NCBI RefSeq assembly: GCF_006016075.1
Contig: NZ_CP040093.1
Span: 496,001 to 560,000 of the forward strand
Direction of reading: 5' to 3'
Length of the DNA: 64,000 bases
Source: Caloramator sp. E03
GTDB lineage: Bacteria > Bacillota > Clostridia > Clostridiales > Caloramatoraceae
Both the position numbers and the translations under genes were made by a program. The notes below the pieces were generated by a model. The model saw only the letters and a program-made list of their open reading frames with translations, was not told where the DNA came from and did not search any database. This document shows positions 5,512 to 53,225 of the stretch, one piece after another. The stretch's first letter is position 1. Every line of letters starts with the position of its first letter.

Positions 5512-6747
5512 TTAAAAATCAATACCTGCCTCTTTAAGCATCCATTCTATATATATACCATATCCCATATCAGGTTTATTTACAAATACATGAGTTATAG
5601 CACCAACAAGCTTCCCATCTTGTATTATAGGGCTTCCACTCATTCCTTGTACTATTCCACCAGTTTTACTTAAAAGCTCATTATCTGTAATTCGAATTAT
5701 CATACTTTTAGAATTTGGTTTTGTTTGTTGTGTTAGCTTTTCTATATAAATATCATATTCTTTAACTTCATTTCCATTTATAGAAGTTAATATCTTTGCT
5801 GGACCCTCTTTTATTTCATTCTGCATTGCTATTGGTATAGGCTTACTATAAAGGGGTTTATCTACTTTTCCTGTAAATTTTCCATATATTCCTGAAGGCG
5901 TATTCTTTTCTATACTTCCAATTTCATCTTCTATTGAAAAAGTTCCTTTAAGTTCCCCTGGTTTTCCCCTAACTCCTTGTTCAATAGCCATTATTTTTGC
6001 TGTATATATTTTACCACTGTTAATTGGAATAATAATCCCTGTGTCTACATCGCTTATTGGATGTCCAAGAGCTCCAAATATATTTGTCTTATCATAATAA
6101 AAGGTTAACGTTCCAATTCCTGCTGTTGAATCTCTTACCCATAATCCTATTTTATATTCATCCTTATTTTTTGTTTCTAAGGGTTTTACTTCTACCGTCC
6201 TAAATCCATCATTATTAGATAATTTTATCTTTAAAATAGAATCTTTATTACTATTAATCATATTTGACAGTTCGTTACAATTATCTACTTTAGTTCCATT
6301 TATCTCAACTATTCTATCTCCAATATTAATTCCTGCTGCTAATGCAGGGCTTTGTTTCCATCCCTTTCCTGTTTCAACATCTGCAAAACCAACAACTAAT
6401 ATACCATCTATATTTATTTTAACTCCAATAGGCTGTCCTCCTGGAATTACCTTAAACTCTGGCACAAAACTTAATGTCATCTTCTTTACTGGAATTATAC
6501 CAAAAAGCTTTATGCTAATATTTAAGCTATTATTTTTATTCGTTAAACCCTTTTCATTATTATTAGATTCAACTTTATATATAAAATTATTTTTTAAACT
6601 GTTATTTTTAAAATTTATTTGTTCACTTTTACTGCCTGAAATTTTAATATTTCCTGGCATAGACATAACATTAATCGTTGCAGCAAACAAAGCAATCGCT
6701 ATTATTATACTAAACCCTGTTGCAATTTTAAAATATTTACTTTTCAA
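5512..6747 (-). CDS. spoIVB: SpoIVB serine peptidase (S55), sporulation signalling protease
   Basis: Forespore protease that crosses the inner forespore membrane and triggers intramembrane processing of pro-sigma-K. An N-terminal hydrophobic anchor (about residues 10-28) is followed by a PDZ domain (GWKQSPALAAGINIGDRIVEING) and the S55 peptidase domain with catalytic His in GALGHPISD and Ser in GMSGSPI. TTG at 6747 is chosen: AAGGAG lies eight bases upstream, whereas the GTG at 6756 would overlap the ribosome-binding site. About 411 residues, normal. It has its own transcription unit, as a terminator follows recN. A sigK gene with a pro-like N-terminus is present elsewhere in the window. Confidence 0.95.
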   Translation of the reverse strand: MKSKYFKIATGFSIIIAIALFAATINVMSMPGNIKISGSKSEQINFKNNSLKNNFIYKVESNNNEKGLTNKNNSLNISIKLFGIIPVKKMTLSFVPEFKVIPGGQPIGVKINIDGILVVGFADVETGKGWKQSPALAAGINIGDRIVEINGTKVDNCNELSNMINSNKDSILKIKLSNNDGFRTVEVKPLETKNKDEYKIGLWVRDSTAGIGTLTFYYDKTNIFGALGHPISDVDTGIIIPINSGKIYTAKIMAIEQGVRGKPGELKGTFSIEDEIGSIEKNTPSGIYGKFTGKVDKPLYSKPIPIAMQNEIKEGPAKILTSINGNEVKEYDIYIEKLTQQTKPNSKSMIIRITDNELLSKTGGIVQGMSGSPIIQDGKLVGAITHVFVNKPDMGYGIYIEWMLKEAGIDF

Positions 6748-6894: not shown

Positions 6895-6939
6895 TATAAA
6901 AATAAGAAAAGCTAAAGTAAAACCTTAGCTTTTCTTATT
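6895..6939 (-). terminator. Intrinsic terminator of the recN operon
   Basis: On the minus strand AATAAGAAAAGCTAA (6925-6939) pairs perfectly with TTAGCTTTTCTTATT (6901-6915), followed by TTTATAAAT. It includes the recN stop codon and closes the long asp23-to-recN operon. Confidence 0.8.
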
Positions 6940-8618
6940 TCACATTTAGTTTTTTCTGCAAGTTCAAGCATCTCTTTAGAATGACTACGAGTGATTTCTG
7001 TTACTGCTGCACCTGAAAGCATTCTTGCAAGTTCTTCAATTTTGTTGTTACTATCAAGTTCATACACTCTTGTATAAGTTTTGTTATTATTAACAATTTT
7101 TTCTATTTTAAAATGTGTATCAGCCATAGAAGCAATCTGTGGAAGATGAGTAACACAAAGTACTTGACGAGCTCCTGATATTAGGCACATCTTTTCAGCT
7201 ACACATTGAGCTGTTCTTCCACTTATACCAGTGTCAATTTCATCAAATATTAAGGTTGGTATCCTATCAACCTCTGCTATAACCGTTTTTATTGCTAGCA
7301 TTATTCTTGAAATTTCTCCTCCAGAAGCAACCTTATTTAAAGGCTTTAAAGGTTCTCCAGGATTTGCTGTCATAACAAAGCAAACGTCATCATTACCATT
7401 CTCTGTTATTTTTTCACTTTCTTCCACATTTATTTTAAAAACTGCTTTTTCCATACCAAGATATTTAAGTTCATTTTCAATCAATTTTTCAAGTTCTGAT
7501 GCAGTTTTCTTTCTTTCCAATGTCATTTTCTTTGAAAGTTCATAAAGCTTGTCTTTATATTCTTGAAGATTTTTCAAATATATATCTAATATTTCTTCGC
7601 TTCTTTCTATATTTAAATATTCTTCTTTTATCTTTGACAGATAATCTAAAATTTCTTCAATAGAATTTCCATATTTGCGTTTTAACTTATTTATTAAATC
7701 AAGTCTTAACTGAATCTCTTCAAGTTCATTTTGATCAAATTCAATAGAATCTTTATATAATCTTATTTCATCTATTACATCCTCAAGTTTATAATAAACA
7801 TCTTCAATTGTATTTTTTATATTTTTTAGTTTATCATCAAATTTTTCTATTGATTCTATGTGAACAATGCTTGTACCTATTTTATCAAAAGCACATTCTC
7901 TATTTTCTCCTCCATAAAGTTCATCATAAATTAATGATAGAGAAGAATAAATCTTCTCAGCATTATATAATATATTTCTTGTTTTTAAAAGTTCATCATC
8001 TTCCCCAAATTTTAAATTAGCTTCAGTTATCTCTTGTATTTGATATTTTAAAAGATCCATCCTTTTTATCTTATACTCTTCATCTTTTTTTAGCTTTTCT
8101 ATTTCTCTTTCTATTTCCTTAACTTTAATATATACCTCTTTAAATTCCTGCTTTATACTCTTAAAGTTATTGCTACAAAATGAATCAAGTAAATCCAAAT
8201 AGCTATTCTCATTTAAAAGAGATTGATGTTCATGCTGTCCATGAATATCTATAAGTAAATTGCTTATCTGTTTTAAAAGCCCTAAAGTAACTGTTCTGTT
8301 ATTTATCCTTGAAATAGTTCTTCCACTTTTATTTATTTCTCTTGATATAATTAAAACATCGTCAACTTCAATTCCATTGTTATCTAAAATATCCTTTACC
8401 TCATTGGTGTTTTCAAACACGGCTTCAACATAAGCAGATTCTTCATCGCCCCTTATTATATCCTTATTTTGCTTCTCACCAAGTACGAAATTAACTGAAT
8501 CTATTAAAATTGACTTTCCTGCACCAGTTTCTCCAGTTAAAATATTTAATCCCTCTGAAAAACTTATATCTAAACTATCAATGAGTGCAAAATTTTTTAT
8601 ATGAAGCTTAAGGAGCAT
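6912..8618 (-). CDS. recN: DNA repair protein RecN
   Basis: SMC-like ATPase that acts early in double-strand-break repair. The 568 residues show Walker A GETGAGKS near residue 30, two long charged coiled-coil arms (about residues 150-380), the ABC signature VASGGEISRIMLAI, Walker B PTLIFDEIDTGISG and the H-loop CVTHLPQIAS. ATG at 8618 follows AGGAGGAGT. It ends the housekeeping operon after argR with 11 bases between, the same order as ahrC-recN of B. subtilis. Confidence 0.97.
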   Translation of the reverse strand: MLLKLHIKNFALIDSLDISFSEGLNILTGETGAGKSILIDSVNFVLGEKQNKDIIRGDEESAYVEAVFENTNEVKDILDNNGIEVDDVLIISREINKSGRTISRINNRTVTLGLLKQISNLLIDIHGQHEHQSLLNENSYLDLLDSFCSNNFKSIKQEFKEVYIKVKEIEREIEKLKKDEEYKIKRMDLLKYQIQEITEANLKFGEDDELLKTRNILYNAEKIYSSLSLIYDELYGGENRECAFDKIGTSIVHIESIEKFDDKLKNIKNTIEDVYYKLEDVIDEIRLYKDSIEFDQNELEEIQLRLDLINKLKRKYGNSIEEILDYLSKIKEEYLNIERSEEILDIYLKNLQEYKDKLYELSKKMTLERKKTASELEKLIENELKYLGMEKAVFKINVEESEKITENGNDDVCFVMTANPGEPLKPLNKVASGGEISRIMLAIKTVIAEVDRIPTLIFDEIDTGISGRTAQCVAEKMCLISGARQVLCVTHLPQIASMADTHFKIEKIVNNNKTYTRVYELDSNNKIEELARMLSGAAVTEITRSHSKEMLELAEKTKCEIRKAKVLL

Positions 8619-8629
8619 TTATACTCCTC

Positions 8630-9082
8630 CTATTCATTTAATATTTTTTTAAACTTTATAACCATTTCCTGTGCCTTTTCAGGAGTTCTTGCAATTATAA
8701 GTATAGTATTATCTCCTGCAACACTTCCTACAAGGCCATCAAGTCCCATATTATCAATTGCTTCTCCAGCTGCAGGACCAGAACCCGAGAGTGTTTTTAC
8801 CAATACAATATTGTTTACATAGTCAATATTAATTACAGATTGGGTAAAAATACTTATAAATTTATCAGTTAATATGCTTTTTCCTTGAGAAATAGGTGCA
8901 TATTTATATTTTCCGCTGCTTGAAAGAACTTTAATTAATTTTAATTCCTTTATATCCCTTGATACAGTTGCTTGGGTAACATCTATTCCCGCCCTTCTCA
9001 ATTCATCAACAAGTTCTTCTTGAGTTTCAATATCCTTCTCACCAATTATTTCTAATATCTTTGCATGCCTTGCAATTTTCAT
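8630..9082 (-). CDS. argR: Arginine repressor ArgR/AhrC
   Basis: Hexameric, arginine-dependent repressor of arginine biosynthesis and activator of catabolism. The N-terminal winged helix is seen in ELRRAGIDVTQATVSRDIKELKL, and the C-terminal arginine-binding domain in GSGPAAGEAIDNMGLDGLVGSVAGDNTIL. ATG at 9082 is chosen because AAAGGAG precedes it by seven bases, giving 150 residues, the family norm; a longer frame overlaps nadK. It sits between nadK and recN. Confidence 0.95.
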   Translation of the reverse strand: MKIARHAKILEIIGEKDIETQEELVDELRRAGIDVTQATVSRDIKELKLIKVLSSSGKYKYAPISQGKSILTDKFISIFTQSVINIDYVNNIVLVKTLSGSGPAAGEAIDNMGLDGLVGSVAGDNTILIIARTPEKAQEMVIKFKKILNE

Positions 9083-9098
9083 AAAAAAACTCCTTTCT

Positions 9099-9956
9099 TT
9101 ATTCCCTTTCATTCTTCAGTTTATTCCTTAAGACATCATAAAAACTTCTATCTAAAACCTTTATAAGTTTCGTGGTATATGGAGCTTTTTTTATAATAAC
9201 ACTGTCCCCATTTTTAAGCTTATATCCTTTTTGACCATCTGTGGTTAAATATACACATTGGCTATCATCTGCAACTTCTACCCTAACGATTTCATCTTTT
9301 GATATAACAATTGATCTTGCACTTAGTGAATGACAGCATATTGGAGTTATTATTATAGCTTCTATTTTAGGATTTAATATAGGCCCTCCTGCAGATAAGG
9401 AATAAGCAGTTGAACCAGTCGGGGTTGATATAATTATTCCATCTGCATTATATGTATCCATATATTCATTATTAACAAAAACCTTCAAGGTTATAATCCT
9501 TGCAAGTATGCCTTTTGTAATTCCAAAATCATTAAGACAATAAAAAGTATCTTCCTCTAGTCCGTCTTTTACAACCTTTGCTTCAAGCATTAGCCTCTCT
9601 TCAATTGAATACTCATTATTTAAAATTTTTTCAAGAGCATCAAAAACATCTTCAGCCTCAACTTCAGCAATAAATCCTAAATGTCCTATGTTTACTCCAA
9701 GTATTGGAGTATTATATTTTACACATTCTCTTGCAACCCCAAGTAACGTTCCATCTCCTCCAAGGACAATTGCAAAGTCACACTTACCATAAAGTTCTTC
9801 ATTTTTGCATCCAAGTTCAATCCTATTTATTTTAAACGCAACTTCTTCCGGAAGAAGAACTTCACATCCTTTTTGGTTAAGCCATTCTAGTATTTTTTTT
9901 GTCATTTGTAAATCATTATCCTTCGACATATTTGTAATTATTGATGCCTTTACCAT
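9099..9956 (-). CDS. nadK: NAD kinase
   Basis: Phosphorylates NAD to NADP using ATP or polyphosphate. The catalytic LGGDGTLLGVAR motif is near residue 65, the NE/D motif appears as CLNDFGI, and the conserved glycine-rich TPTGSTAYSLSAGGP follows. 285 residues is typical. ATG at 9956 follows GGCGGTGA. It lies between tlyA and argR, a common clostridial arrangement within the dxs operon. Confidence 0.95.
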   Translation of the reverse strand: MVKASIITNMSKDNDLQMTKKILEWLNQKGCEVLLPEEVAFKINRIELGCKNEELYGKCDFAIVLGGDGTLLGVARECVKYNTPILGVNIGHLGFIAEVEAEDVFDALEKILNNEYSIEERLMLEAKVVKDGLEEDTFYCLNDFGITKGILARIITLKVFVNNEYMDTYNADGIIISTPTGSTAYSLSAGGPILNPKIEAIIITPICCHSLSARSIVISKDEIVRVEVADDSQCVYLTTDGQKGYKLKNGDSVIIKKAPYTTKLIKVLDRSFYDVLRNKLKNERE

Positions 9957-10020
9957 CTTTTCACCGCCACAAAATCTACTATATTATTTCAATAACAATT
10001 ACAAAAATCCTTTTTTTATT

Positions 10021-10830
10021 TTATAGATATTTATGTGATTTTTCTACAATGTCATTTATTAATTCATCTATGAACTCAATTGCAATATTACCATAATTAG
10101 TAAAATAAGCAAGATACTCAATATTACCTTCTGGGCCTTTTATAGGTGAATAAGTAAGACCTTTTAGTACAAAGCCCATACCTATCGCAAAATCCACTAT
10201 ATTTTTTACCACTTCCTTATGCACATTAATATCTCTTACTACACCTTTTTTCCCAACTTTCTCTCTACCTGCTTCAAACTGTGGTTTAATAAGACATATT
10301 ACTTCTCCCTTTAAATTAAGAAGCTGTTTTACAACAGGAAGTACAAGTTTTAAAGAAATAAAAGAAACATCAATGGATACAAAATCAGCCTTTGTATCAA
10401 TATCCTCTGGTTTCACAAAACGAATATTAGTTCTTTCCATACACACAACCCTTGGATCCGTTCTAAGTACCCAAGCAAGCTGTCCATATCCAACGTCTAT
10501 AGCATATACCTTTTTTGCCCCGTTTTTTAGCATACAATCAGTAAAACCACCCGTTGATGCTCCTACATCTATCGCAACCTTGTTTTTCAAATCTATAGAA
10601 AACTCATTAACTGCTTTTTCAAGCTTAAGTCCTCCTCTACTTACATAGGGAATTGTTTCTCCTTTGACTTCAATATTTGAATTAACAGGTACCTTTTCTC
10701 CAGGTTTGTCAACTCTAACATTATCAACAAATACTAATCCTGCTAATATATTTTTTTGAGCTTTTTCCCTCGAATCAAAAAATCCATTCTTTACAAGCAG
10801 TATATCTATCCTTTCTTTACTTTCTGCCAT
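10021..10830 (-). CDS. tlyA: TlyA family rRNA methyltransferase (S4 + FtsJ-like domains)
   Basis: Predicted 2'-O-methyltransferase for cytidines of 16S and 23S rRNA, often annotated as hemolysin A; B. subtilis YqxC is the orthologue. An N-terminal S4 RNA-binding domain (residues 1-60, RIDILLVKNGFFDSREKAQKNI) precedes a Rossmann methyltransferase domain with SAM motif VAIDVGASTGGFTDCML and the catalytic-region Lys in CLIKPQFEAGRE. 269 residues is normal. It follows dxs closely. The true rRNA target here is inferred from the family. Confidence 0.92.
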   Translation of the reverse strand: MAESKERIDILLVKNGFFDSREKAQKNILAGLVFVDNVRVDKPGEKVPVNSNIEVKGETIPYVSRGGLKLEKAVNEFSIDLKNKVAIDVGASTGGFTDCMLKNGAKKVYAIDVGYGQLAWVLRTDPRVVCMERTNIRFVKPEDIDTKADFVSIDVSFISLKLVLPVVKQLLNLKGEVICLIKPQFEAGREKVGKKGVVRDINVHKEVVKNIVDFAIGMGFVLKGLTYSPIKGPEGNIEYLAYFTNYGNIAIEFIDELINDIVEKSHKYL

Positions 10831-10840
10831 AGTCTTCTCC

Positions 10841-12706
10841 TTATATGTTCATCAATATTTTTTCATATATTCCGTCTGCATCTAATCCATATTTTTTATA
10901 CAATATTGCAGGAGCTCCATGGGTTACAAATTCATCTGGAAAGCCAAGCCTTATTAGCTTTCCTTTATAGTTTTTCTCACTTGCATATTCTAAAACTGCA
11001 CTTCCAAACCCTCCTGCAATTACCCCATCTTCTATGGTAATTATGGTATTATATTTTTTAAAAATGCTCTCAAGAAGTATAGTATCCATTGGCTTTATAA
11101 ATCTACAATTTATAAGTGCTGCATTTATATTATTATTGATTTTTAGTCTATTCAAAGCTTTAATAGCAAACTGAATCATTCTTCCAACAGCCAAAACTGC
11201 AATATCATTACCATCTTTTAAAATTTCCCATTTTCCTTTTATAATAACCTCATCTTCATTAAAAGGGAAAGTAACATCAAAGTCTCCTCCCCTTGGATAA
11301 CGTATAGCAACAGGTTTATCATACTCAAAGCACCATCTTAACATAATTCTAAATTCATTTATATCCTTTGGAGATAACATTGTAATATTTGGAATAGATC
11401 TTAAGTATGCTATATCAAAAATTCCCTGATGAGTCTCTCCATCTTCCCCAACTATACCAGCTCTATCTATTGCAAATACAACAGGAAGATTTTGAAGACA
11501 TACATCATGTATAATCTGATCATAGGCCCTTTGAAGAAAAGTTGAATAAACAGCAAATACCGGTTTTAAACCATTTGCAGCAAGCCCTGCTGCAAAGGTT
11601 ACAGCATGCTGTTCTGCTATACCTACATCAAAAAATCTTGTTGGAAATTTATTTTTAAATTCATTTAGTCCTGTGCCATCAGGCATTGCAGCAGTTATTG
11701 CAACAATATTTCTATTTCTTTGAGCAGCTTTAATAATTTCCTCTCCAAATACTTTTGAATAGTTTGTTTTTACAGTAGCTATGTTTTCTCCAGTTTCTAT
11801 TTCAAAAGGACCTATTCCATGAAATTCTTCTGGGCTTTCTTCTGCAAAGCAGTACCCTTTTCCTTTTTTAGTAATAACGTGAATAAGAACTGGTCCTTTT
11901 TTATTTTTAGCCCTTTCTAAAACTTCACTAATCCTTTGTATATCATGACCATCAATTGGCCCTAAATATGTAAAACCCATTTCTTCAAATAGCATTCCCT
12001 GAACAAGTAAATATTTTAAGCTTTCTTTTAATTTTTCTGCACCTTTATATAAATTATTCCCTACTGTAGGAATTTTTTTCAATATTAATTCTAAATCATC
12101 TTTTAAATTTAGATAGGTTGGATCTGTTCTTATTTTGCTTAAATAAGCAGCTATGCTTCCAACGTTTTTTGATATTGACATCTCATTGTCATTTAAAACT
12201 ACAATTATGTTAGTATTTGAAATACCTGCTTCATTTAATCCCTCAAGGGCAAGACCTCCCGTTAAAGCCCCATCTCCTATTACAGCAACAACATTATACT
12301 TTTCATTTTTAATATCCCTTGCTTTAGCCATGCCAAGAGCAGCAGATATTGATGTACTACTATGACCTGCTGCAAAAACATCATAAGGACTTTCACTTGG
12401 CTTTGGGAAGCCACTAAGTCCTCCATATTTTCTTAAAGTACTAAATCTATTTTTTCTTCCTGTTAATATCTTATGAACATAAGATTGATGACCTACATCC
12501 CAAATTATTTTATCTTCAGGCATATTAAATACTCTATGAAGAGCTATTGTAAGCTCAACTACACCAAGATTAGAGGCAAGATGGCCCCCTGTTTTTGAAA
12601 CAGTATAGATTAAAAAATTTCTAATTTCTTCAGCAAGTTTATAAAGTTCATCTAATTTTAATTTTTTTAATTTACTTGGAGAATTAATTTCATCTAACAA
12701 ATTCAT
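10841..12706 (-). CDS. dxs: 1-deoxy-D-xylulose-5-phosphate synthase
   Basis: First enzyme of the MEP isoprenoid pathway; condenses pyruvate and glyceraldehyde 3-phosphate with thiamine diphosphate and Mg. Visible motifs are HLASNLGVVELTIAL, the ThDP/Mg motif VIGDGALTGGLALEGLNEAG with NDNEMSIS, and the second-domain DRAGIVGEDGETHQG. 621 residues is full length. It lies 13 bases after oapA. ispA, in the same operon just upstream of the OLE RNA, is also an isoprenoid gene, a context typical of OLE loci. Confidence 0.97.
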   Translation of the reverse strand: MNLLDEINSPSKLKKLKLDELYKLAEEIRNFLIYTVSKTGGHLASNLGVVELTIALHRVFNMPEDKIIWDVGHQSYVHKILTGRKNRFSTLRKYGGLSGFPKPSESPYDVFAAGHSSTSISAALGMAKARDIKNEKYNVVAVIGDGALTGGLALEGLNEAGISNTNIIVVLNDNEMSISKNVGSIAAYLSKIRTDPTYLNLKDDLELILKKIPTVGNNLYKGAEKLKESLKYLLVQGMLFEEMGFTYLGPIDGHDIQRISEVLERAKNKKGPVLIHVITKKGKGYCFAEESPEEFHGIGPFEIETGENIATVKTNYSKVFGEEIIKAAQRNRNIVAITAAMPDGTGLNEFKNKFPTRFFDVGIAEQHAVTFAAGLAANGLKPVFAVYSTFLQRAYDQIIHDVCLQNLPVVFAIDRAGIVGEDGETHQGIFDIAYLRSIPNITMLSPKDINEFRIMLRWCFEYDKPVAIRYPRGGDFDVTFPFNEDEVIIKGKWEILKDGNDIAVLAVGRMIQFAIKALNRLKINNNINAALINCRFIKPMDTILLESIFKKYNTIITIEDGVIAGGFGSAVLEYASEKNYKGKLIRLGFPDEFVTHGAPAILYKKYGLDADGIYEKILMNI

Positions 12707-13307: not shown

Positions 13308-13324
13308 ACTAATAACCTCTATGT

Positions 13325-13908
13325 ATTGTCCAAGTGGTAGAAGAAAAGGTTAAGTTTGCGGCTTAGGTCCAGCAGGCTTTCCCACTTTCAAGACCTCAGC
13401 GTCGCCGCTGTGGCGGTTTCCCTTTAACCAAAAGTCCATATTGTTACCATATATGGGGCTGGATTACCACTTAGTCCACACTGCAATCCCTTTTCTCCCT
13501 CCAAAGGAACAGTCTAGGAGTTTTCCTCAACAGCTTAGTCTATTATTAGCCTCTTTTGCAAAGTTGGTTTCCTATAGCAATAACATAAAATTCTGGATCC
13601 GGGAATTTTATGTCTGATCTATCCTCCACCAACTTCGCTCAAGGCAGGCTACACTGCACGCAGCTATATACCGCAATGCAGGTTTAATCCCATGCCGTAC
13701 TTTTAAAGCACGTACATAGGTCTCCGCGAGGGTAGGGTCGATTGCGCATGCCGTTGCGGTCGCCCCATCCCCCTTACTCCCAGCACCAACCCACTACTGG
13801 GCGTAGCGAGCCAGCACAAGGAACTTCATCGATGTGCCCTTTGACGGATTTTTAGCCCCGTCTTCATAATAAACTTAGCTGACTAGAATACTGCACCACT
13901 TGGAACAG
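13325..13908 (-). ncRNA. ole: OLE RNA (Ornate Large Extremophilic RNA)
   Basis: About 580 bases without coding frames and conspicuously richer in G and C than all flanking DNA. The ends close by a perfect 10-base stem: TCCAAGTGGT at the RNA 5' end (13895-13904) with ACCACTTGGA at the 3' end (13329-13338). Recognised OLE-like blocks include GGGGCTAAAAATCCGTCAAAGG, at the 5' part, the GC-rich segment at 13720-13767, and CCTAAGCCGCAAACTT near the 3' end. An internal extended hairpin is visible at 13560-13640 (arms 13583-13593 and 13603-13613 perfect). Size, ornate pairing, the oapA gene directly downstream and the ispA/dxs context all match OLE RNA. A promoter sits 7 to 12 bases before the 5' stem. 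The function of OLE is unresolved; in Bacillus halodurans it affects tolerance to cold, alcohol and Mg. Confidence 0.93.
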
Positions 13909-13914
13909 ATTATT

Positions 13915-13943
13915 ATTCTATCATAACTTAATCATCATAACAA
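13915..13943 (-). promoter_or_regulatory. Probable sigma-A promoter of OLE RNA
   Basis: On the minus strand TTGTTA (13938-13943), 17 bases, then TAGAAT (13915-13920) with an extended TGa just before it. The predicted start site, about seven bases further, falls just before the first base of the OLE closing stem, which supports the call. Confidence 0.55.
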
Positions 13944-13952
13944 TATTTCATT

Positions 13953-14387
13953 CTATGCAATAATACCAATTATTATCCCTAAAAGAGCTCCTGCAATAAC
14001 TTCTATTGGCGTATGTCCTATTAGCTCCTTTAATCTCTCTTCTCTAATTCCATTTTCCTTTATAATATCATCTATTATTAAATTTAATATCCTTGCTTGA
14101 TTTCCAGCTGCTCTCCTTACACCAGCTGCGTCATACATAACTATTAAGGCAAAACATAATGCTATAGCAAATTCTGGGCTGTCGAATCCAACTATATATC
14201 CACACTTTACTGCCAAAGCTACTGAAAATGCTGAATGGGAACTTGGCATTCCTCCTGAGCCTATTATCCTTGAAAAATCTACTTTTCCAGCTGTAAAATA
14301 AGAAGTAAAAATTTTGAGAAATTGTGCTACTGCCCACCCTAAAACTGCAGCTATTAATATTTTATTGTTTATTATTTCACGCAACAT
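13953..14387 (-). CDS. Divergent PAP2 family membrane protein (DUF212, YuiD-like)
   Basis: Small membrane protein of the divergent PAP2 / acid-phosphatase-like family. The conserved motif GSGGMPSSHSAFSVALA and the downstream MYDAAGVRRAAGNQARILN are diagnostic; HTPIEVIAGALLGIIIG follows. Four or so membrane segments. ATG at 14387 is used (the TTG one codon earlier is an alternative); AGGAA lies just upstream. A link to polyprenyl phosphates is suggested only by its place between ispA and the OLE RNA. Activity is unproven for the family. Confidence 0.85.
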   Translation of the reverse strand: MLREIINNKILIAAVLGWAVAQFLKIFTSYFTAGKVDFSRIIGSGGMPSSHSAFSVALAVKCGYIVGFDSPEFAIALCFALIVMYDAAGVRRAAGNQARILNLIIDDIIKENGIREERLKELIGHTPIEVIAGALLGIIIGIIA

Positions 14388-14402
14388 CAATTCCTATCAC
14401 CC

Positions 14403-15275
14403 TTAGCTTTCTCTATGAAGCAAATAATCAGTAAGATTTAAAAGGAAGCCACTATTATCAATAATTTTAGCACTTTCTGTAGCTTTCATAGAATACTCTT
14501 TTGCAATTTTTTTTGATTCTTCAATCCCTAAGATGCTTACAAATGTAGATTTATTTTTCTGTTTATCAGCTCCCGTATTTTTCCCAAGCTTTTTAATATC
14601 TCCTTCATAATCAAGTATATCATCAACTATTTGAAAGGCAATCCCAAGGTCTTTTCCATACTGCAAAACTGTATTATACATATCTTCTCTTTCAGCAATT
14701 ATACAACCACAAAGACATGAAGCTGTAATCAACGCTCCTGTTTTTTTTCTATGCATTTCGTACAGAGTATCTAAATCTATACTTTTGCCTTCACTTTCTA
14801 TATCAATAACCTGACCTCCAACCATACCTGTTATCCCTGATGCTTTTGCAATAGTATATGCAGCCTTTACATAGCTTATTTTATTCTTTTTAACAGCTAT
14901 ATCAAGCATAATCTCAAATGCATAATTTAAAAGTCCATCACCTGCTAATATTGAAATTGCTTCTCCATACACCCTATGATTTGTAGGCCTTCCCCTTCTT
15001 AAATCATCATCATCCATTGCTGGAAGATCATCATGTATTAAGGAATAGGTATGTATAAGTTCTATTGCACAAGCAAATTCCAATATATCATCAATTTTTC
15101 CACCTAATGCCTCACATATAGAAATTGATAGTATTGGTCTTATCCTTTTTCCACCTGCAAGAAGGCTGTAATTCATTGATTCTATTATTTTTTGGGGAGC
15201 GTTCTTATCTATTATTCTTTCAAGAACCATATTTACTAAAGTCTGTTTTTCTATTAACTCTTTTTCAAAATCCAT
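14403..15275 (-). CDS. ispA: Farnesyl/geranyl diphosphate synthase
   Basis: Head-to-tail prenyltransferase that makes C15 (or longer) isoprenoid diphosphates. The first aspartate-rich motif is HDDLPAMDDDDLRRGRPTNH and the second is QIVDDILDYEGD; the KTGALI segment is also present. 290 residues is typical of bacterial FPP synthase. The gene starts two bases after xseB, exactly as in B. subtilis (xseA-xseB-ispA). Confidence 0.95.
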   Translation of the reverse strand: MDFEKELIEKQTLVNMVLERIIDKNAPQKIIESMNYSLLAGGKRIRPILSISICEALGGKIDDILEFACAIELIHTYSLIHDDLPAMDDDDLRRGRPTNHRVYGEAISILAGDGLLNYAFEIMLDIAVKKNKISYVKAAYTIAKASGITGMVGGQVIDIESEGKSIDLDTLYEMHRKKTGALITASCLCGCIIAEREDMYNTVLQYGKDLGIAFQIVDDILDYEGDIKKLGKNTGADKQKNKSTFVSILGIEESKKIAKEYSMKATESAKIIDNSGFLLNLTDYLLHRES

Positions 15276-15277
15276 AG

Positions 15278-15520
15278 TTACTCCTCCTTTAAAGCAAAGT
15301 CCTCTTCGAAGGTATTATCATCTTTGCCTTTAACTATTATACTTATTTTTCTTTCAGCTTCATCAAGCTTCTTATTGCAAAAATCGGCAAGCTTCATACC
15401 TTCTTCAAATAGCTTTAAGGACTCCTCTAAGGAAAGATCATCCTCCTCCATTATATTCGAAATTTCCTCCAGCCTTTTTAACGCTTCTTCAAAGCTCTTA
15501 TCATTTTTATTTCTTCCCAT
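15278..15520 (-). CDS. xseB: Exodeoxyribonuclease VII small subunit
   Basis: The 80-residue partner of XseA. The family signature FEEALKRLEEISNIMEEDDLSLEESLKLFEEGMKL is complete and predicts the usual helical hairpin. ATG at 15520 lies inside the end of xseA (14-base overlap), giving translational coupling. The C-terminal tail is acidic. Confidence 0.95.
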   Translation of the reverse strand: MGRNKNDKSFEEALKRLEEISNIMEEDDLSLEESLKLFEEGMKLADFCNKKLDEAERKISIIVKGKDDNTFEEDFALKEE

Positions 15521-16724
15521 AGATATCCTCCATAATCTTCTCCACCTTACATTCTACAACTCCATCACTAAGGTGAAGATTAATATTATCATCAATGTGA
15601 AGCTTTTTTACGCTTTTTACTATTTCTCCTTTACTCTCAATATATGCATATCCCCTTAATAATACCTTTGCTGGATTTAAGGCATCAAGCTTATTCAAAA
15701 CTGCCTCAAGATGTTTTCTATCAATATTTATTCTGTTTTGAATATTGCTTAGTATTTTATACTGAAGAACATCTACATACTGCTGACTCTGCCTTATTAA
15801 GTTTTCAGGAGATTCTGAGTTAAGTAGTCTAATCAAATCCTTTACTTTATATCTATTTTCTAATATCTTATCTTGCAAATTCGAAAACATTATGTTTTCT
15901 ATGCTTTTAATTTTATATTTTAAATCATCATAACAAGGGACAGCCATCTCAGCAGCATGAGAAGGAGTTGATGCTCTAAGATCAGAAACAAAATCTGCTA
16001 TTGTAAAATCCGTTTCATGCCCAACAGCAGAAATTACTGGAATTTTACTTTTATATATTGCCCTTGCAACAATCTCCTCATTAAAAGCCCATAGCTCTTC
16101 AATTGAGCCTCCTCCCCTTGCTATTATTATAACATCAATATCATCTCTTGTATTAAAATATTCTATTGCCTCAACTATACTTTCCTTAGCTCCTTCCCCC
16201 TGAACCTTAGCAGGATATAATACTATATTTACATTATAAAATCTTCTTGAAGAGACATTTATAATATCTCGTATAACTGCTCCCGTTGGAGATGTCACAA
16301 CTCCTATTTTTTGCGGGAACACAGGTATAGGCCTTTTTCTTTCCTTGTCAAAAAGCCCTTCTTTCTCAAGCTTATCCTTTAATTTTTCAAAGGCAACATA
16401 CAGGTTCCCTAATCCATCCCTTTCCATACTACAACAATATAATTGATACTGGCCATCCCTTTCATATACTGAGATATACCCTGTTATTATTACATTCATT
16501 CCATCCTCAGGCATAAACTTTAAGAACTGATTATAGCCTTTAAACATTACACATTTTATTTTGGCTTCTTCATCTTTTAATGTAAAGTACATGTGTCCAG
16601 AAGAGTGAAATTTAAAATTTGATATTTCTCCTGTTACTGTTACATTGCATAATTCTATATCATTTTCAATTATATCTTTTATGTATTCAGTTAAAGTAGA
16701 GACTGTAAAAGGTTTTTTATTCAT
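15507..16724 (-). CDS. xseA: Exodeoxyribonuclease VII large subunit
   Basis: Single-strand-specific nuclease in repair. The N-terminal OB fold (VTGEISNFKFHSSGHMYFTLKDEEAKIKCVMFKG) precedes the catalytic domain with VTSPTGAVIRDI, RGGGSIEELWAFN and the conserved HETDFTIADFVSDLRASTPSHAAE. ATG at 16724 is used, giving 405 residues; a GGAGG lies 11 bases upstream within the 3' end of folD. Upstream in-frame starts have no Shine-Dalgarno sequence. Confidence 0.95.
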   Translation of the reverse strand: MNKKPFTVSTLTEYIKDIIENDIELCNVTVTGEISNFKFHSSGHMYFTLKDEEAKIKCVMFKGYNQFLKFMPEDGMNVIITGYISVYERDGQYQLYCCSMERDGLGNLYVAFEKLKDKLEKEGLFDKERKRPIPVFPQKIGVVTSPTGAVIRDIINVSSRRFYNVNIVLYPAKVQGEGAKESIVEAIEYFNTRDDIDVIIIARGGGSIEELWAFNEEIVARAIYKSKIPVISAVGHETDFTIADFVSDLRASTPSHAAEMAVPCYDDLKYKIKSIENIMFSNLQDKILENRYKVKDLIRLLNSESPENLIRQSQQYVDVLQYKILSNIQNRINIDRKHLEAVLNKLDALNPAKVLLRGYAYIESKGEIVKSVKKLHIDDNINLHLSDGVVECKVEKIMEDIYGKK

Positions 16725-17550
16725 AATTATTAAAAGCCTCCAAAACATTTTCAATTAGCATTGTCGTTGTCATAGCTCCAACTCCTCCTGGCACTGGAGT
16801 TATATACGAAGCCTTTTCAAGCACTTTTTCAAAATCCACATCACCTTTTAATTTACCATCAACCATAGTTGTTCCCGCATCTATTACTACTGCTCCTTCC
16901 TTTACCATGTCAGCAGTAATAAGGCCGGGTTTTCCAACAGCACTTACTATTATATCACATTCTAAAAGTTGAGATTTCAAATTAAAAGTCTTTGAATGGC
17001 ATATCGTAACCGTTGCATTATTATTTAAAAGCATCATTGCACAAGGTTTTCCTACTATATTGCTTCTTCCAACTACAGCTGCCTTTTTCCCAGAAATTTC
17101 AATACCATAAGCTTTAATAAGCCTTATAATACCTTTAGGAGTACAAGGCAATAAGCATTTTTCCCCTCTAAAAAGCCTTCCTGCATTTTCTGGGTTAAAA
17201 CAATCAACATCCTTACGATAATCAATTATACTGGCAATTTTATTTTCATTTATATGCTTTGGCAAAGGAACTTGTACAAGTATTCCATGTATATCTTTCC
17301 TTATATTTAATTCCTCAATAAGCCTTATAAGATCTTCCTCTTTTGTGTTCATTGGTAAATTATATGTAACAGAACCAAGCCCCGTTTGAATACATACTTT
17401 TTCTTTATTTTTAACATAAGCTGCTGATGAAGGATCCCCTTCAACTATAATTGTTGCAAGAGTTGGTTTTACTGCCTTTTCAGCTTCTATTTTCCTTATC
17501 TCCTCTGCAAGTTTTGCTCTTATTCCTTCTGCTATCTTTTTTCCATCCAT
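16717..17550 (-). CDS. folD: Bifunctional methylene-THF dehydrogenase / cyclohydrolase
   Basis: Interconverts methylene-, methenyl- and formyl-tetrahydrofolate. Visible motifs are AAYVKNKEKVC with the catalytic Lys, the folate-site motif ILVQVPLPKHI, GRSNIVGKP of the NAD(P) site and TPVPGGVGAMTTTML at the C-terminus. ATG at 17550 follows GTGGGG; 277 residues is typical. It overlaps xseA by eight bases. Confidence 0.96.
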   Translation of the reverse strand: MDGKKIAEGIRAKLAEEIRKIEAEKAVKPTLATIIVEGDPSSAAYVKNKEKVCIQTGLGSVTYNLPMNTKEEDLIRLIEELNIRKDIHGILVQVPLPKHINENKIASIIDYRKDVDCFNPENAGRLFRGEKCLLPCTPKGIIRLIKAYGIEISGKKAAVVGRSNIVGKPCAMMLLNNNATVTICHSKTFNLKSQLLECDIIVSAVGKPGLITADMVKEGAVVIDAGTTMVDGKLKGDVDFEKVLEKASYITPVPGGVGAMTTTMLIENVLEAFNNYE

Positions 17551-17563
17551 TATAATCCCCACA

Positions 17564-18481
17564 TCAAATACCTCCCTGATTCATATATCCAATATAGGCA
17601 ATCCCTACTGCGTTATCCGAAGCATATTTAGGATCGCCAAAAAAAACAAGATTATAAAATCTTTTTGAAATATAGTTTCTTAAAAATTCACTTGATGCAA
17701 CCCCTCCCATTATTAAAACAGGAAGGTTATATGTCTTTAAAATATTGTTTATAGTTTTTTCTATTGTTTTAGAGATGCAAAGCATTGCTGCATAGCATAT
17801 CTCATAAGGATTATAGCCCATATTTATATATTTTAGTCCTAACGTTTCCTGTCCTGAAAGATTAAATTCTAATCCATCAACCCTTGATGGTATTCTAAGG
17901 CCAGCATCATCTTTAGACATGGCAAGTGAGTCTACATATTTACCTGCAGGAAATTCAAACCCTAAAGCTACGCCAATTCTATCAATAAACTGACCAAGGC
18001 TTATATCCTTAGTCCCTCCAATTTTCTTAATAAAATAACCTTTGTCCCTTTTTATGTGTAAAACTTCTGAAGTCCCTCCAGATAGATGTAATGCAACAAA
18101 TTCTTTATATTCAAAATCTATAGAACGGCAAGCCGCTTCAATATGCCCCTCCTGGTGTGTTGTATAATAAATATTTATATTATTTGTATATGCAATAGCC
18201 TCTGCTATACTTTGTCCTGCTTTAAATACTGGCATATATGATTCTTCAATAGGTCTTGGCTTTATACTAACACATACGGCATCAAGATTGCTAACAGATT
18301 TATCATTTAAAATAAGAGGCAAATTATTCACATGCTGAAAAAGGGCTTCAGATTGCCTCAAGCCCTTTTCTCCAGTCTTTATTTTAAGAAGTTTTCTGGT
18401 ATCATAAACTATTTTACCATTATCAACAACTGCAACAGAAGTCGTATAATTGCTTGTATCAATCCCTAAAACCCTACACAT
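17564..18481 (-). CDS. TsaD/Kae1-like ASKHA protein (glycoprotease-like paralogue)
   Basis: A 305-residue ASKHA ATPase-fold protein. N-terminal GIDTSNYTTSVAVVD and the metal-site-like motif THQEGHIEAAC resemble the HxExH region of TsaD, and LSGGTSEVL and IMGGVASSEFLR match its nucleotide-binding loops. It is shorter than true TsaD (about 340) and has HQEGH where TsaD has HMEGH, so I treat it as the clostridial paralogue found next to nusB rather than the t6A synthase itself. ATG overlaps the nusB stop (TAATG). Confidence 0.8.
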   Translation of the reverse strand: MCRVLGIDTSNYTTSVAVVDNGKIVYDTRKLLKIKTGEKGLRQSEALFQHVNNLPLILNDKSVSNLDAVCVSIKPRPIEESYMPVFKAGQSIAEAIAYTNNINIYYTTHQEGHIEAACRSIDFEYKEFVALHLSGGTSEVLHIKRDKGYFIKKIGGTKDISLGQFIDRIGVALGFEFPAGKYVDSLAMSKDDAGLRIPSRVDGLEFNLSGQETLGLKYINMGYNPYEICYAAMLCISKTIEKTINNILKTYNLPVLIMGGVASSEFLRNYISKRFYNLVFFGDPKYASDNAVGIAYIGYMNQGGI

Positions 18482-18891
18482 TATTTTATCTCCCTTAGTA
18501 TATTGCCAAGTACTCCATTAATAAATACCCTTGATTCATCCGTGCTGTATTTTTTTGCAAGCTCAATAGCTTCATTTACTGCAACAACATTTGGAACATC
18601 TTCCCTATAAAGCATTTCATAAACTCCTAGCCTTAAAATTGCAAGATCAACCTTTGCAATTCTTCCCATCTTCCACCCAGGTTTTAAATATCTTTCTATA
18701 TAACCGTCAATTTCTTTTTTGCGATTTTCGACTCCTTCTAAACAGTTTTTTAAATATTCAACATCATCCTTTGAAAGCTCTAATTCGCTATTTTCAATGA
18801 AACTTTCAAGTACCTCTGATGCATTTGAATTATTAACATTCATCTGGTATATCAATGTCATCGCTGTTTCCCTTGCAAGTTTTCTACTCAT
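18481..18891 (-). CDS. nusB: Transcription antitermination factor NusB
   Basis: Binds boxA RNA with S10 during rRNA antitermination. The all-helical family features are clear: MSRKLARETAMTLIYQM at the N-terminus and DLAILRLGVYEMLYREDVPNVVAVNEAIELAKKYSTDESRVFINGVLGNI at the C-terminus (quoted in part from two adjoining helices). ATG at 18891 follows GGAGG by seven bases; 136 residues is normal. Follows the asp23-amaP-DUF2273 genes, as in most Firmicutes. Confidence 0.95.
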   Translation of the reverse strand: MSRKLARETAMTLIYQMNVNNSNASEVLESFIENSELELSKDDVEYLKNCLEGVENRKKEIDGYIERYLKPGWKMGRIAKVDLAILRLGVYEMLYREDVPNVVAVNEAIELAKKYSTDESRVFINGVLGNILREIK

Positions 18892-18905
18892 TAGTATTCC
18901 TCCAA

Positions 18906-19130
18906 TTATTTCCATTCATCAGGTAGTATTTTTTGAATTGTTTCTACTATACTCTCTTTATTATCTATCTTTTTTCCAATATAATACCCTATAAATACAC
19001 ATATTGCAATAAATAATGCTTTTAAAAATCCAATAGTTAATATGAATATTGCAAGGATAAATCCTACAATTGCTCCAATAAACTTTCCCCGGTTATTGTG
19101 GAAGATATTTAACAACACTTCTTTCCACAT
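18906..19130 (-). CDS. DUF2273 small membrane protein
   Basis: A 74-residue protein with two adjacent hydrophobic helices, including the family-typical GAIVGFILAIFILTIGFLKA and the basic turn GYYIGKKID. DUF2273 proteins accompany Asp23 and AmaP and are thought to help anchor Asp23 at the membrane. ATG at 19130 follows AGGTG. It is 12 bases after amaP. Confidence 0.87.
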   Translation of the reverse strand: MWKEVLLNIFHNNRGKFIGAIVGFILAIFILTIGFLKALFIAICVFIGYYIGKKIDNKESIVETIQKILPDEWK

Positions 19131-52995: not shown

Positions 52996-53225
52996 TAAAA
53001 AAGCCCTCATCCCTAATTAGGGACGAAGACTTATTACTCCGTGGTACCACCCTTATTACCATAAAGGTCACTTTAAACTATAACGGATGAACCGTCTTTG
53101 CCTACTAAATTCAGCAAAGAAGCTTTGGGACTGCTTCCACTATATCCTCTAAGGACTCTCACCACCCGTCCTCTCTCTTAAAGAAAGATTATAGCGTACT
53201 CCTTCCCTTCATAGCCTTTAACTTC
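52996..53225 (-). promoter_or_regulatory. T-box riboswitch, alanine-specific (specifier GCA)
   Basis: tRNA-sensing leader controlling alaS by antitermination. Stem I has the AGTA loop-E motif (complement of 53197-53200) opposite GAA-GCA, placing specifier codon GCA (Ala) at 53132-53134. Stem III is CTTTGC/GCAAAG near 53095-53120. The T-box sequence GGGTGGTACCACGG is at 53039-53052. The terminator pairs 53020-53030 with 53003-53013 (11 pairs including G-U) and ends in TTTTTT (52997-53002). The specifier matches the downstream gene. Confidence 0.95.

Follow-up and report, generated by a model that had tools for sequence, protein, structure and literature searches.

The non-coding segment directly upstream of oapA in Caloramator sp. 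E03 raises the question of whether it is an OLE RNA gene with a promoter of its own, as a preliminary description of the sequence had proposed, and whether an intact copy in this organism would be of particular value. To our knowledge, few structured bacterial RNAs without a settled biochemical function are as large as OLE. We have addressed the question using the window (the whole stretch of 64,000 nucleotides that was analysed), the remainder of the genome and the OLE loci of relatives; the features of the locus are collected in Table 1.

Table 1. Features at and around the OLE locus, in window coordinates.
Feature	Position	Strand	Basis or remark
OLE RNA closed by P1	13329..13904	-	576 nt; RF01071, 523.6 bits; fold z -8.0; single copy
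P1 5' strand, TCCAAGTGGT	13895..13904	-	covariation, 50 OLE loci
P1 3' strand, ACCACTTGGA	13329..13338	-	covariation, 50 OLE loci
Predicted sigma-A promoter, TTGTTA-17-TAGAAT, TG before the -10	13915..13943	-	extended -10, recurs in 30 of 51 loci
oapA, OLE-associated membrane protein A, 195 aa	12720..13307	-	identity to OLE-adjacent products; weak CNNM match
dxs, 1-deoxy-D-xylulose-5-phosphate synthase	10841..12706	-	TIGR00204, 856 bits
tlyA, NAD kinase gene, argR, recN (remaining usual OLE neighbours)	6912..10830	-	profile matches
DUF212 / divergent PAP2 gene, upstream of OLE	13953..14390	-	PF02681, E 8.6e-51
ispA, farnesyl diphosphate synthase	14403..15275	-	NF045485, 341.7 bits, above cut-off
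xseB-, xseA- and folD-like ORFs (by eye and position), TsaD-family gene, nusB	15278..18915	-	profiles for TsaD and NusB only

Identity and extent of the RNA

Scanning the entire window with Rfam covariance models, the check first proposed for this segment, identified it as OLE: RF01071 matched the minus strand from 13915 to 13318 over model positions 1-616, at 523.6 bits (E 1.1e-150) against a gathering score of 50 bits. Two matches in the window exceeded the Rfam cut-offs, OLE among them, and at 53016-53221 the minus strand carries a T-box leader (RF00230, 144.3 bits). The genome-wide search found one OLE copy. The segment had also been described as GC-rich, non-coding, highly structured and about 580 bases long, and each of these properties held on measurement: its GC content is 0.48, where the window averages 0.30 (sd 0.04), and none of the 575-base stretches taken at 25-base steps along the window is richer; its minimum-free-energy z-score is -8.0 relative to dinucleotide shuffles; and 576 nt separate the outer ends of its closing stem, P1. 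The interval originally given for the RNA, 13325-13943, takes in the promoter as well. A protein-coding gene was rejected, as no ORF of at least 60 aa overlaps 13308-13952 on either strand, and a phage origin was rejected as well, with no similar DNA found among 50,697 phage records.

Damaged OLE copies do exist in relatives (the genome G035, described below, provides an example), and the copy here could in principle be a degenerate, non-functional remnant. We regard this as exceedingly improbable, however, given that the model is covered in full, the score resembles those of other intact copies, P1 is perfect, and the reading frames of oapA, oapB and oapC are intact. The locus is a complete, ordinary copy of a known RNA class, to which it adds one member. 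The preliminary description had set a high value on an intact locus of this kind, which we consider overstated: OLE was found in 86 of 196 genomes in an even sample of the class (and in 27 of 60 in a search of relatives, the present genome counted), and as such a further intact copy is nothing out of the ordinary.

The closing stem

P1 was correctly described at the outset as a perfect 10-bp stem, in which TCCAAGTGGT (13904-13895) pairs with ACCACTTGGA (13338-13329). In the structure line of the Rfam OLE model the corresponding columns are drawn unpaired, and the pairing was examined across 50 OLE loci from the family, order and class, anchored without gaps by conserved stretches that lie beyond P1. 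Over the ten positions, 88% of cells are standard pairs. When the 3' strands were dealt out among the sequences this fell to 71% (sd 1.4, maximum 76% in 2000 shuffles, a control that takes the loci as independent though they are related), and with the partner shifted by 1-3 bases 35-62% remained paired. Both sides change at positions -2, -6 and -7, while at position -8 A-U, G-C, C-G, U-A, G-U and U-G pairs are all seen among the loci. As the pairing drops when the partner is shifted and many pair types occur, the compensatory changes across these relatives point securely to a real, covarying stem, even though the shuffles ignore relatedness. We do not put P1 forward as new, as it is presumably the closing stem drawn in the published OLE consensus.

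Predicted promoter and transcription start

The extended -10 promoter proposed earlier, TTGTTA-17-TAGAAT, is present at 13943-13915 as had been described. Transcription had been predicted to begin right at the 5' stem; the predicted start, at about 13908, would lie 4 nt before P1. A single match of this kind is weak when taken alone, with 12 promoter-like sites in 1.9 kb compared to 7.7 (sd 2.6) in shuffles, and the site's score of 9/12 is common in this AT-rich DNA. We therefore consider the possibility that OLE here lacks a dedicated promoter and arises solely through processing of a long operon transcript. This would accord with the ubiquity of such sites, and with four loci from one genus of the same family (L008, L009, L011 and L012) that lack an extended -10 and in which OLE starts at the end of the DUF212 gene. 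Against it stands a scan of the 34 bases before P1 in 51 loci, in which an extended -10 (one mismatch allowed) turned up in 30, whereas control windows further upstream gave 1.0 each and shuffles gave 1.5 (maximum 6); the size of this excess is rough, as the shuffles were mononucleotide and the loci are related. Given such recurrence, the predicted OLE promoter is more than a lone consensus match. The H. halodurans ole gene, moreover, has its own promoter, with processing presumed in addition (PMC9723947), and on balance we judge production by processing alone to be unlikely.

Between 14500 and 12600 the minus strand showed no terminator-like site, the gap between OLE and oapA included, and about 21 nt separate the 3' strand of P1, which ends beside a Shine-Dalgarno-like AGAGG (13320-13316), from the oapA start codon. 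Both observations would suit a segment whose main task is cis control of oapA and dxs as a structured 5' leader, in the manner of a riboswitch, and not as a free RNA; translation initiation would be a conceivable point of such control. However, the H. halodurans OLE acts as a particle with bound proteins (PMC9723947, PMC12054373), and the genome G052 has a complete OLE before dxs without oapA, which resides elsewhere with a second OLE. A role mainly as a leader thus seems quite improbable. It is very doubtful, though conceivable, that the transcript from OLE's own promoter doubles as the oapA-dxs 5' leader, such that OapA binding near P1 and the ribosome-binding site would feed back on expression; were this the case, a dual free RNA and leader would exert feedback upon both OapA and isoprenoid synthesis.

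Gene neighbourhood and protein partners

On the minus strand the order is nusB, a TsaD-family gene, folD/xseA/xseB-like ORFs, ispA, DUF212, OLE, oapA, dxs, tlyA, NAD kinase, argR and recN. The gene adjoining OLE downstream is oapA, as had been claimed, while the placement of the RNA between ispA and dxs is accurate in a wide sense only, the DUF212 gene intervening before ispA and oapA before dxs. An oapA homologue adjoins OLE in nearly all of the relatives, and oapA has been reported to co-occur almost always with OLE (PMC11332333). The product here is 42-86% identical to those adjoining OLE in relatives, and 41% identical over 179 aa to the one beside a plasmid-borne OLE; its match to the CNNM family is weak (E 0.007), and no relative of solved structure was found by sequence.

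OapB and OapC are common in OLE-bearing species, occurring in about 60% and 45% of them, although neither is a strict companion. In this genome an OapB homologue, for which the best PDB match is 7k9b 'OLE-associated protein B' (E 1.9e-11), is encoded between map and an infA-like ORF, and an OapC/YbxF homologue is encoded between rpoC and rpsL. Other L7Ae and KOW matches (YlxQ-like, NusG and L24) were rejected as OapC or OapB by gene context and length. A bS21 gene is also present. No protein with a CNNM domain (PF01595) was found in the genome, the completeness of which is 97.8%, while an equal search found one in 12 of 14 control genomes. The lack of a CNNM/MpfA match fits the published anticorrelation of OLE and MpfA across species (PMC11332333), which is a tendency. 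Taken as a set, OapA, OapB, OapC/YbxF and bS21 with no detected MpfA/CNNM protein make up the pattern published for OLE-bearing species.

Comparison with other OLE loci

The copy here and the H. halodurans OLE are full-length members of the same RNA family, with oapA directly downstream, OapB and OapC encoded in the genome and an upstream promoter, reported for H. halodurans and predicted here. They differ in that the host is clostridial here and bacillar there. The P6 element of the H. halodurans RNA, furthermore, has a CCUCC anti-Shine-Dalgarno mimic, which is reported as the bS21 site of that RNA and is not a defining feature of the OLE family. The mimic is absent from the copy here (13715-13780), and in the P5-P6 segment of 51 loci it is present in 5 and absent from 46; as such, this precise motif is not shared generally, at least within the class, and bS21 binding cannot be assumed here. 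In the H. halodurans paper on the mimic, bS21 still bound when most of the mimic was mutated and two conserved G-C pairs were kept.

The Clostridium acetobutylicum OLE, seen as a dimer by cryo-EM (PMC12286853), is in effect of the same length at 577 nt and shares the A-rich loop CTAAAAATCC with the copy here. The nearest named relatives are also Caloramator: Caloramator quimbayensis (L073, probably also L014) has the same OLE, oapA and dxs, along with ispA and DUF212, and its promoter and P1 are nearly identical; Caloramator sp. SKW245 (L072, probably also L026) has the same OLE, oapA and dxs neighbours, its OLE copy being cut by a contig end. OapA is 81% identical to that of C. quimbayensis and 86% identical to that of SKW245, and the sequence differences at their OLE loci are minor.

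Several loci are of less usual construction. G052 (L013/L037, L028/L038) carries two full-length OLE genes, at 527.7 and 503.4 bits. No oapA follows the one between ispA and dxs, the roughly 300 bases before dxs containing no OapA-like reading frame, and the only oapA found adjoins the second OLE, in the midst of genes of ABC-transporter and MFS type. In G035, a congener, the OLE (L027/L039:6469-6849) is only 381 nt long, lacks the P5 hairpin and is missing much of its middle, and the OapA match (5877-6400) reads through an internal stop, so that ole and oapA are apparently a decaying locus. A 504-kb plasmid of Pusillibacter faecalis, typed conjugative (NZ_AP023421.1, L069:5983-6647), bears OLE with oapA, dxs, tlyA, NAD kinase, argR and recN.

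Proposed role and significance

We consider it nearly certain that this is an ordinary full-length OLE gene; most likely it is transcribed from its own sigma-A promoter and with its operon and trimmed near P1, and it would act in a particle like that of H. halodurans. The locus and genome directly supply the RNA, P1, the promoter-like site with its conservation, the partner genes and the lack of a detectable CNNM gene; transcription, processing, particle formation and physiological role would follow by analogy from publications on H. halodurans and C. acetobutylicum. OLE has been found to form a dimer (PMC12286853), to sit at the membrane with OapA (PMC12265935), and to bind OapB and OapC and be required for growth on poor carbon sources, in the cold and in the presence of alcohol or high Mg2+ (PMC9723947, PMC12054373). 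Given that the conserved RNA segments and partner genes are kept here, the same role is what we would best infer.

The RNA most likely arises from its own promoter and also within transcripts of the nusB-ispA-oapA-dxs-recN operon, with trimming to follow near P1. The resulting particle would be a membrane-bound RNA-protein complex in which OLE forms a homodimer, OapA lies in the membrane, OapB is bound at P12.2/P13 and OapC at the k-turn near P5. Such a particle would help the cell to cope with stresses that include cold, alcohol, poor carbon sources and too much Mg2+, and would probably do the job of the MpfA-type CNNM proteins of other bacteria. The copy here opens no new test by itself, as H. 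halodurans already serves, and G052 and G035 are the more informative natural experiments. What the locus offers is a clean OLE copy accompanied by every essential partner so far known, in a genome where no CNNM-type protein was detected; while the biochemical role of OLE is not settled by it, it fits the idea of an OLE particle that stands in for MpfA.
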